A stretch of 34,809 nucleotides of DNA, taken from contig LT649346.1 of NCBI GenBank assembly GCA_900128395.1, positions 1 through 34,809 on the forward strand. The letters are read 5' to 3'. Numbering within the stretch: position 1 is the first letter of the stretch; each line of letters opens with the position of its first letter. The notes under the pieces are model-generated. The model had not been told where the DNA came from and did no database searches. It was given only the letters and a program-made list of their open reading frames with translations. Positions 27,769-30,840 of this stretch are shown here, piece by piece. Source of the DNA: Stramenopiles sp. TOSAG23-2 (lineage: Eukaryota > Sar). The position numbers were made by a program, and so were the translations under genes.

Positions 27769-30021
27769 ATGTCGATTCGTAAAAAGAATGCATGGGGTAT
27801 GAAACAAAAATTATTGCGGGAGAAGAAACAGAAAGAAAAGAAAAAACTTGAATTAAGGAAAGCAAAAAATGAACAAAAAGAACGTGAACAAGCAAGACTC
27901 GAAATAAAACATGCAAGTGAAAAGCGACAATATAGTAATAATAATAACAACAACAACAACAATCAAACTAATACGAGAAAAACAACCACCTGGGCAAACA
28001 TTAGCAATAAGCAAAGCAACAATATGAAAAAGCCATCGTTTCAACAATCATCGAAAAAAACAAATAATAATACAAATGATAATAAGGAACGTTCTGATGA
28101 TAGTTTATTTGCACATTTATTGGCGCAACAACAACTAGGGTCTCAAAATAACAATAAAAAAGGTAAGAAAAAGAAATCAAAGCAACCAAGTGATTTGCTG
28201 CAAGCGCCTATTATTACAACTAAACTATCACAAAATCAATTAAAAAAATTGAATAAGAAAAACAATAAAAAAAATAAAAAACCGACGTTCGAAAATAATC
28301 GGACTGTAACATACAGAGAAAAAAAAGTTGTTATTGTTACTAAAAAAGAATTTGAAGATACACAAAAAATTATACATGGTGAATTAGATGAGAGTGAAGT
28401 GAAAAAAATTACGGAAAGAAAGAAGAAGAAGAAACGCCCATCCACATTACGTAAAGCTATTAATCGTGATCGTAGAAAACGTTGGTTTGAAGCAAATCCT
28501 GAGGTTTTGATTGCAAAAAAAACATGTTTAAAGATGAATATGTATTTAAATGTTGCAAGATTATTGAAAATGGAAATGGCTATCCCAACAATATATAAAG
28601 ATAGTGAAGATTATGCTATTGTCGTTAATAATTTGGCGAAAGATAAATTAAAAGAATCTATTTCCCCTTCGAAAAAAAATAAGAACAAGAAATTAAAAAA
28701 TAATAATAAAAACAGCAACAAAAAGCAAGTGGGTAAGAAAAAGAAAGGTAGTAGTAAGAATAACAATAATGAAATGCAAGTTATTGAAGAAGAAGAAGAA
28801 GAAGAAAAGCAGGAAGACAAAGAAGTGAAAAATGCAGATAATAATTTAAATGATAATACAACTAATAATGACAATATTAATAGTGATTTTCCACCTTTAC
28901 CATCAATGGATTTCCCACCACTTCCATCGACAAATATAAAATCAAAGAAAAAACATGCTTTAAAAAAAAAAGAAACAAATACTACATTAGATAGTATTAT
29001 ATCCACAGCAGACAAAAATAATGATAACAATGCGAAGAAGAAAAAGAAGAATTCAACGGTGAAAAAAGGAGAAGTAAAACAGAAGAAGAAAAAAGTAAAT
29101 CCATTTGCTTCCCCATATCCAAAATTACCAAACGCATCACATACACGTGATTATGTAGATCAAATTGTTGATGTTGACATTGGTAAAAAAGTGAAACAAA
29201 TGTTTTCTATTCTTGTCAAATTGCAAGAAAAATTACGGAAAACAGATCCAGAACGGGCGAAATTACGAAAACGATATGTCGTTGGTACGAGAGAAGTATT
29301 ACGTTCATCTAAAAAGAAAACTACAAAATGTATTATTATGGCAACAAATATAGACGAATGTGGAGAACGTGGTGGTCTAGATGAAACGCATGGTAAAATT
29401 GTTGCTAATTGTAAACAAAACGATATACCTTTAATTTACGCATTGCGACGTCGTACTTTAGGAAAGGCGTTGGGGAAACATTTAAAAATGAGTTCCGTAG
29501 CAGTTTTAAATGCTGATGATGCAAGTGTGTATTACAAAGAATTATTAGTAATGGCTAAAGAACGTAAACAGCAATTTATAAATGGGAAAGAATCAAATTC
29601 TAGTAATGACAATCCTAATCAATATAATAATAATGTTGGCAGTGTAAAGACAGGGGAGAATAAAGGTGATGCGTCATCTGCCAACTCTATGGCTGCTAAG
29701 ACAAGCGAAATGCACTCATTTCATGATAAAAAACAGCATCATACTAATAGTTCACAAAAGCATTCGAAGAAAGGGAAGAAGAAGAAGAAAAATAATTCTA
29801 TTGATGAACTTGATAAATCAAGTCTATCTGTGATGAAACCATCTAAAGAATTATATGGTAATCGTAACACTGATATGGAAAAAAATGATACAAAACAAAA
29901 GCGAACTCAACTAAACCCAAGTGCTGGTGAATTTGTTCCAAATTATTATAATCCAGTTGCTAAGGAATGGGTACCTCCATCAACATATAATACTAATAAT
30001 AATGATAATGATAATGGTGAC

Positions 30022-30055
<34 letters not shown>

Positions 30056-30840
30056 GTGACTATAATAATAATAATAATAATAACAACAGTGTCATGGATA
30101 ACAACAATATAAATAATAAAAACCAATTTGCAATTGTACCATTTTCACATACTGCAAATTGGAGTGAGGCGTTAAAATTGCCAAAGCGTAATATTACATT
30201 ATTTAATCGAAATTTAGTTTTAGAACAAGATTGGAAAGATGATGGAAAGGGAGGTAGTAACTTAGGATTTGGTGCTTCGATTTATCCTAGTGCAATACTT
30301 TTAGCATCGTATTTTGAGAAAAACCAACAGATAATGAAAAACAAAACGGTGTTAGAATTAGGCGCTGGTGTTGGCCTTTGTGGGATAGCAGCATATTTAG
30401 CAGGTGCTAAAAAAGTATGCATAACTGATGGCGATGATGAATTATTGAAATTGATTAAAAAAAATGTGAAATCAAATATAAATTCATACGATGTACATAC
30501 ATCGCGTTTGCTTTGGGGAGATATGAATGACCATGCAATTATTCAAAGGGATGTTTTATCAACATCATTAAATAATAAATTTGACGTCATTTTTGGTAGT
30601 GATATTGTTGCATGCCCATATGTAGATGCATTAAATTCATTAATTGAAACCTTGGAATATTATTTCAACGAAAATCCAAAATTGTTGATATACATCAGTT
30701 ACAAACGTAGAAATGAAAGTGAAAACAATTATTTTTGGAATATTATTCAAGAAACAAAAGGATGGAAAACGGAGGATGTTAATATTGATATGTTTGAAGG
30801 GATGAATGAAGATTTATATTTATGTAAAATTAGTAATTAA
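27769..30840 (+). CDS. SBP2-like SECIS-binding protein fused to a PAM2 motif and methyltransferase
   Basis: 1023 residues in one frame. Residues 1-440 are Lys/Glu/Asn-rich with a short paired DFPPLPS motif (373-388). Residues about 446-485 hold a block before the L7Ae domain (SPYPKLPNASHTRDYVDQ) placed like the Sec-incorporation segment. Residues about 495-600 are an L7Ae-type RNA-binding domain with SBP2 features: RYVVGTREVLR, CIIMATNIDE, GGLDETHGKIV and RRTLGKALGK. SBP2 binds the kink-turn in SECIS elements and recruits the elongation factor that inserts selenocysteine. LNPSAGEFVPNYYN (715-728) is a PAM2 motif for the MLLE domain of poly(A)-binding protein. After an Asn-rich linker, residues 797-1023 form a class I methyltransferase of METTL21/Methyltransf_16 type: VLELGAGVGLCGIAAYLAGA (861-880), ITDGDD (acidic strand end) and GSDIVACPY. 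The combination has no known counterpart that I can name. The methylation target is unknown. Confidence 0.9.
30001..30100 (+). repeat. AAT microsatellite with GGTGAC interruptions, in frame
   Basis: Trinucleotide (AAT)n tracts with GGTGACTAT interruptions encode the Asn-rich linker between the PAM2 motif and the methyltransferase. Units are multiples of three, so expansion keeps the frame and changes linker length. Confidence 0.85.

Follow-up and report, generated by a model that had tools for sequence, protein, structure and literature searches.

The window analysed in this study, the 34,809 nucleotides of contig LT649346.1 from Stramenopiles sp. TOSAG23-2, contains on its forward strand an undivided reading frame (27769-30840, 1023 residues followed by a stop codon), which joins a homologue of SBP2, the protein that binds the selenocysteine insertion sequence (SECIS), to two successive PAM2-type motifs and a complete S-adenosylmethionine (SAM)-dependent methyltransferase. 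As best explanation for the whole arrangement, to which we assign a probability of roughly 55%, we propose that the SBP2 part would dock on poly(A)-binding protein (PABP) via its PAM2 pair and tether the methyltransferase to translating messenger ribonucleoprotein particles (mRNPs). A preliminary description of the same DNA had anticipated the undivided frame with both of its parts, and the domain searches suggested there place Pfam matches in the expected locations, namely Ribosomal_L7Ae at residues 496-586 (E 9e-12), PAM2 at residues 712-726 (20.5 bits at a cut-off of 20) and Methyltransf_16 at residues 831-992 (E 6.5e-25, 88.3 bits at a cut-off of 21).

An SBP2 homologue with tandem PAM2-type motifs

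The relationship of the RNA-binding part to SBP2 is evident from its sequence and from its predicted fold, as had been proposed. Among solved structures, its best relative is human SECISBP2 (7zjw_B, E 2.7e-22 over residues 443-601), compared to a value of 3.1e-4 for the best ribosomal L7Ae protein. For an AlphaFold model of this part, with a mean predicted local distance difference test (pLDDT) score of 81.3, the nearest structure identified by Foldseek is SBP2 on the 80S ribosome with a SECIS element (7zjx_B), with template modelling (TM) scores of 0.80 normalised by query and 0.67 by target. Upstream of this domain, the core of a SID-like block (KKKKRPSTLRKAINRDRRKRW) aligns with the human sequence KKPTSLKKIILKERQER, although the alignment comprises the core block alone and contains AINRD where the human protein has IILKE. 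In our own reading, the FPPLP repeat of the window protein may relate to the DFPE motif known in human SBP2 (PMC2746813; here and below, statements on cited papers refer to their accessible parts). The gene is thus shown to be a member of the SBP2 family, and its capability to bind SECIS elements is predicted from sequence.

The region following the RNA-binding domain contains two closely spaced motifs. The first, LNPSAGEFVP, fits the published PAM2 consensus LNxxAxEFxP, and the second, YNPVAKEWVP, which begins 12 residues beyond the first residue of its predecessor, fits by pattern only the tryptophan-containing form that was named PAM2w in LARP4 and LARP4B (PMC7356810). A strict PAM2-type pattern that covers both forms is found in two copies in the window protein, at an expectation from shuffled proteins of at most 0.0004 per protein, and across all six frames of the window (69,614 residues) the same pattern retrieves those two copies and no others. 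The pattern is also found twice in each of the SBP2-like proteins P0002, P0004, P0005 and P0006, and thus, with the window protein itself (P0001), in five of eight family members; it is absent in P0003, P0008 and P0009, with P0008 containing a relaxed form once. Since P0001 and P0002, as well as P0004 and P0006, are close, the five tandem-motif proteins represent perhaps three lineages. The combination of a PAM2 with a PAM2w-like motif is in this way common to the SBP2 of the window and its nearest relatives. P0004, P0005 and P0006 stop two residues beyond the second motif, and it is therefore most likely that the ancestral SBP2 of the group ended at this point. The tail of P0002, submitted by itself, scores 25.8 bits with the Pfam PAM2 model. 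A different elaboration is found in P0003 (1069 residues), where four RRM stretches are located between the SID-like block and the L7Ae domain.

Selenocysteine pathway and PABP in the host assembly

The host assembly (G000, 17.45 Mb in 793 contigs), which reads as eukaryotic from its genes, was inspected for the machinery of selenocysteine (Sec) decoding with profile models that were also run on 14 control genomes. SepSecS is found in three pieces with 217.9 bits at a cut-off of 21.1, and SelD with 283.4 bits at a cut-off of 125, the latter within an 846-codon frame (L038, G000:C587:2942-3874), where it is preceded in frame by a part that reads as an oxidoreductase or NADH-dehydrogenase-like domain, a type of fusion known in protists (PMC4561486). 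Two tRNA-Sec genes score 64.4 bits each at a cut-off of 47, and a third match remains below; the two genes (L011 and L012, G000:C227:11214-11478) reside on the same strand at a distance of 93 bases. A GTPase encoded by a 622-codon frame is identified as eEFSec-like by reading, since it reaches 106.8 bits with a bacterial selB model whose cut-off is 242.25. A glutathione peroxidase gene (L039, G000:C22:45799-46119, minus strand) contains exactly one in-frame TGA and is followed in its 3' flank by a hairpin of -28.5 kcal/mol (z -4.27, with 1 of 200 shuffles as good) that reads as SECIS-like, which makes it a likely selenoprotein gene. The Rfam model SECIS_1 was uninformative, as it has no match in the host assembly and none in any of the 14 controls. 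Collectively, these markers suggest that the host genome decodes selenocysteine, with the assignment of eEFSec depending on reading only.

The assembly also contains the presumed partner of the PAM2 motifs, in the form of a PABP MLLE domain on contig C175 (99.8 bits), which includes the sequence KITGMLLE and is the only MLLE match in the assembly; none of the 14 control genomes shows a match. The Pfam score of LNPSAGEFVP bears out the PAM2 motif of the preliminary description. In a scan of the host assembly for PAM2, the window motif was the best of four matches with 23.2 bits, almost level with the second at 23.1 bits, which belongs to a Tpr-like coiled-coil protein (L041, G000:C13:51020, LNPSASVFVP), and a motif of a Sac3/GANP-like protein (L043, G000:C166:23079, LNPFAATFTP) falls below the cut-off, both proteins being named by reading. 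These motifs possibly connect factors of mRNA export with PABP, or they are false positives. A further PAM2-like match on contig C430 was considered as eRF3 and rejected, as a stop follows the motif and no eRF3 sequence is found nearby in the three frames of the same strand. Both eEF1A and eRF3 are missing from the assembly or unreadable in it, as illustrated by the absence of any match to EF-Tu domain 3 (PF03143), which is found in 14 of 14 controls.

This possible incompleteness is relevant for an alternative where the L7Ae-type protein would be another kink-turn binder, with its PAM2 motifs directed towards a different MLLE protein. In its favour, the core of the SID-like block deviates from its human counterpart, SECIS binding is a prediction, and a second SBP2 could be missing, since the assembly may not be complete. 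Yet SBP2 is the top match by sequence as well as by fold, and of the five L7Ae matches in the assembly, sorted by reading, the window frame is the only one of SBP2 type in a genome with a Sec pathway, the other four resembling L7a, NHP2 and Snu13. With a single MLLE match in the assembly as potential binding partner, we consider this alternative highly improbable.

The methyltransferase and its fusion to SBP2

The description of the C-terminal part as a complete class I methyltransferase is confirmed by its Methyltransf_16 match and its METTL21A-like predicted fold. Compared to solved structures, METTL21A is its best relative by sequence (3e-13), followed by METTL21B (4.5e-11), and the nearest structure to an AlphaFold model of the domain (mean pLDDT 79.2) is METTL21A (4lec_B), with TM scores of 0.69 and 0.81. 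The proposed assignment as a METTL21-type lysine methyltransferase of chaperones or elongation factors has not withstood closer inspection, and we have rejected orthology of the enzyme with METTL21. In a tree of 34 rows, where the PDB rows are fragments, several branches are long and the composition of the fused row is unusual, the enzyme and 17 relatives form a separate clade of 18 rows (support 96/92) apart from METTL21A and METTL21B. Its nearest named enzymes are from brown algae, although its place beside them is weak (89/74). The tree also included seven other Methyltransf_16 frames from the same genome (the contig of L026 contains L028 as a second match, and L029 was left out), all of which reside outside the clade. 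In the MTF16 group, the hallmark (D/E)XX(Y/F), with DXXY following motif II, is located close to the AdoMet methyl group (PMC4482628; the wording DXXY was not found in PMC3547847). The fused enzyme instead contains DIVACPY, in line with the motif D(I/V)(V/A)AxPY, or DxxAxPY, of 17 of 17 clade relatives. There are 49 columns that at least 13 of the 14 relatives conserve, and in 42 of these the fused enzyme is intact, including the residues of the SAM motifs and a Trp. The protein is likely an active SAM enzyme. A further Methyltransf_16 enzyme of the host (L022, on G000:C706), encoded by a 465-codon frame, follows a part that reads like ankyrin repeats.

The reality of the fusion is supported by P0007, a protein from a separate public contig in a cluster of 13 sequences, which matches the window protein at 498 of 505 positions from residue 523 to the end. 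It has the same junction, with a linker that is four residues longer as a consequence of three in-frame indels. Since a separate contig shows the same junction with in-frame changes in its Asn-rich linker, an assembly error is unlikely. Still, the region could harbour two genes, with an SBP2 ending past the second PAM2 motif and a methyltransferase starting around Met777 (30097), in which case the frame in between would be open by chance through AAT repeats, because of an overlooked intron or through an error of assembly. The N-terminus starting from Met777 (MDNNNINNKNQFAIVPF) indeed resembles those of stand-alone relatives such as MDEQHLAIVPF, the AAT repeats are free of stops in the frame of the linker, P0002 and P0004 to P0006 end at this point, and a GTGAG is found at 30164, inside the enzyme part. 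However, there is no in-frame stop between the parts and neither GTAAG nor GTATG occurs in 29880-30260. We have for this reason rejected an intron of SepSecS type inside the linker, the standard being the two introns of this one gene (about 190 and 150 nucleotides as read, with donors GTAAGT and GTATGT). A break in the Asn linker, which the preliminary description had named as evidence for two genes, was not seen, and the same unbroken junction is found in the contig of P0007, which together make this possibility very unlikely. Of the 17 clade relatives, 15 start with a Met located 1-75 residues ahead of the conserved A-(I/L)-V-P-F, whereas P0017 starts with Leu and P0019, a fragment, lacks its N-terminus. 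It thus seems that two entire proteins, an SBP2 and an enzyme, were joined end to end.

The spread of the fusion was investigated in two homologue searches, the first covering the 7993 candidates that share most words (563-1790 residues, 2 matches) and the second proteins of 344-1094 residues (7 matches), and in an enzyme search among proteins of about 240-763 residues (23 matches). Apart from P0007, the enzyme part is absent in all seven SBP2-like relatives (P0002 to P0006, P0008 and P0009) and an L7Ae domain is absent among the listed Pfam domains of the 22 other enzyme homologues, while 46 pattern matches in viral contigs contained no relative. The possibility that the parts are always separate in homologues, which the preliminary description had raised as an objection, is thus partly borne out, with the near-identical P0007 as the exception. 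Because no relative except the near-identical P0007 shows both parts, the fusion looks lineage-specific rather than unreal, and among the relatives found it is young or rare. In the accessible part of the open PMC literature we found nothing that connects SBP2 with PAM2 or with a fused methyltransferase, and we did not find a description of an architecture where a known factor, the Sec-decoding SBP2, is combined with PABP-docking motifs and a methyltransferase.

Alternatively, the fusion may be passive, with an enzyme that has kept the substrate of its stand-alone relatives and is unrelated to selenocysteine decoding, which we regard as a possible, if tentative, explanation. None of the 17 clade relatives contains an SBP2 part and the two halves are separated by a 50-residue Asn-rich linker. 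Moreover, none of the seven other Methyltransf_16 frames in the tree joins the clade of the enzyme (an eighth, on contig C139, was left out), and the fused copy may therefore have to do the old job. Conversely, the linker has remained in frame in two separate contigs, and even a passive tether would still place the enzyme on mRNPs containing SECIS elements and poly(A). The features of the gene are listed in Table 1.

Table 1. Coordinates of the fused gene and its parts in the window, with residue numbers of the 1023-residue protein
Feature	Position	Strand	Basis or remark
Whole fused frame, SBP2 homologue with tandem PAM2-type motifs and methyltransferase	27769..30840	+	1023 residues; P0007 covers residues 523-1023
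SID-like block KKKKRPSTLRKAINRDRRKRW, residues 218-239	28420..28485	+	aligned with human SBP2 AKKPTSLKKIILKERQER
Repeat DFPPLPSMDFPPLPS (FPPLP repeats), residues 373-387	28885..28929	+	also present in P0002
Predicted SECIS/kink-turn binding domain of SBP2 type, residues 443-601 (Pfam L7Ae core 496-586)	29095..29571	+	sequence and fold matches
PAM2 motif LNPSAGEFVP, residues 715-724	29911..29940	+	Pfam PF07145, pattern and shuffles
Second, PAM2w-like motif YNPVAKEWVP, residues 727-736 (Trp for Phe)	29947..29976	+	pattern
Asn-rich linker, residues 737-786, mostly AAT codons	29977..30126	+	length varies in frame between window and P0007
Methyltransferase, residues 787-1023 and stop	30127..30840	+	aligns with stand-alone relatives from the conserved A-(I/L)-V-P-F start
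SAM-binding motif I VLELGAGVGLCGI, residues 861-873	30349..30387	+	sequence
Altered motif DIVACPY after motif II, residues 945-951 (DXXY in METTL21/MTF16 enzymes)	30601..30621	+	alignment

Elsewhere in the window, a 951-codon frame on the minus strand (82-2937) encodes, according to Pfam, an aspartyl protease towards its C-terminus; its long N-terminal region appears glycosidase-like by eye and shows no Pfam match at E 0.01.

Proposed role and relation to known systems

In the mechanism that we favour, the SID-like block and the L7Ae-type domain would bind SECIS kink-turns in the 3' untranslated regions of selenoprotein mRNAs and, together with eEFSec and Sec-tRNA, the SBP2 part would permit the reading of UGA as selenocysteine. 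The PAM2 and PAM2w-like motifs would dock to the MLLE domain of PABP on the adjacent poly(A) tail, so that the protein would accumulate on selenoprotein mRNAs with a poly(A) tail and, by binding SECIS and PABP, be placed between the 3' untranslated region and the tail. As the frame continues beyond its Asn-rich linker with a complete SAM-dependent methyltransferase, which is a stand-alone protein in the relatives found, the fusion would bring this enzyme to translating mRNPs, where it would most likely methylate a lysine in a translation protein nearby. The SECIS/PABP scaffolding is well motivated, and we can only infer that recoding might be coupled to the methylation of a translation factor.

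Several observations weigh against this proposal. At full length, the Pfam PAM2 model exceeds its cut-off in the window protein alone, with P0002 at 19.9 bits, P0005 at 15.6 bits and no match in the other five of the eight SBP2-like proteins. The second copy by itself is not matched in the window protein (YNPVAKEWVP) nor in P0002 (FNPGAKEWTP), and in the tail of P0004 (FNPSAAEWTP) it reaches 15.6 bits, below the cut-off. Since PAM2-like motifs are also found in a Tpr-like and, below the cut-off, a Sac3-like protein of the host, a PAM2 need not mean a role in selenocysteine decoding. As models for several pathway markers exceed their cut-offs in control genomes as well (SepSecS in 3 of 14, tRNA-Sec in 5, SelD in 2 and glutathione peroxidase in 6), the case for the pathway rests on the whole set, and the host assembly may be a metagenome bin and may contain contaminating sequences. 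The nearest relative, P0002, with 78% identity across 31% of the query region, shows no enzyme and ends 8 residues beyond its second motif, although an enzyme exon behind an intron would escape notice in its protein sequence, and a stand-alone enzyme of fewer than 240 residues in its organism would be missed by the enzyme search. The fused enzyme is located on a long branch (1.37, compared to 0.10 and 0.22 for its brown-algal sisters and 1.42 for P0015 of the same clade), and it has lost 7 of the 49 conserved columns, two of which (a Phe and a His) are kept in 14 of 14 relatives. As it belongs to a separate clade and lacks the DXXY hallmark, its substrate is unreadable from homology. Finally, the fusion, which as far as can be seen is real, is known here from DNA.

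A broader question is how a distant SECIS in the 3' untranslated region competes with termination at UGA. By analogy to eRF3, the fused protein could act as its PABP-docked rival at UGA-Sec codons, with the enzyme marking eEFSec, PABP or a ribosomal protein, an extension that we consider unlikely. In such a scenario, the tandem PAM2/PAM2w motifs, with a layout much like that of eRF3, would take the MLLE domain of PABP from eRF3, and the loss of PABP would weaken termination while eEFSec is recruited. The PAM2 pair of eRF3 was described to bind PABP with raised affinity (PMC2854688) and the interaction of both proteins to raise termination in vitro (PMC9661723). A related lead, rather than a result, concerns the start of human SBP2 (...IKLSADVKPFVPR...), which contains the LSAD motif common to SBP2 and SBP2L, for which no function is given in the accessible text of PMC2746813. 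In animals, this motif (KLSADVKPFVP) matches the PAM2-N site of eRF3a (LNVNAKPFVP) at 6 of 10 positions. It contains a Val where the Ala of PAM2 is invariant (PMC2854688), and the Pfam PAM2 model does not match the N-terminus of human SBP2. From this resemblance, docking to PABP may be an ancient trait of SBP2.

The SBP2 proteins with candidate PABP-docking motifs in a release factor-like layout form a group that would offer a direct and cheap test for a role of poly(A) and PABP in selenocysteine recoding. The fused enzyme hints at a possible methylation step in this process, and the fusion may help to trace the partner of an enzyme clade that includes brown algae and contains no characterised member among those found.

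The described features relate the protein to several known systems. With SECISBP2 and SECISBP2L it shares the L7Ae-type RNA-binding domain and possibly the SID, whereas the tandem motifs and the C-terminal methyltransferase are found only on the side of the window protein; the accessible text of the paper on SBP2 evolution (PMC2746813) describes no such parts and does not contain the word methyltransferase. With eRF3 (GSPT1), a member of a different protein family, it has in common two closely spaced PAM2 sites (LNVNAKPFVPNVHAAEFVP in eRF3a and LNPSAGEFVPNYYNPVAKEWVP in the window protein), but the sites of eRF3 overlap, with the second lacking the leucine (PMC2854688), whereas those of the window protein are successive, with the second containing Tyr and Trp. 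The replacement of the consensus Phe by Trp is shared with the PAM2w of LARP4 and LARP4B (PMC7356810), where the motif is located close to the N-terminus in a protein of the La family, whereas the second motif of the window protein opens with Tyr instead of Leu. The enzyme resembles METTL21A, METTL21B and the MTF16 lysine methyltransferases in its fold, SAM motifs, conserved Trp and Methyltransf_16 profile, and differs from them in its clade and in the replacement of DXXY. Likened by description, a parallel to the fusion as such is the SPS2-methyltransferase of Naegleria gruberi (PMC4561486), where the partner is a selenophosphate synthetase and not a SECIS-binding protein, thus illustrating that the joining of a protist Sec-pathway protein to a methyltransferase domain has arisen elsewhere.

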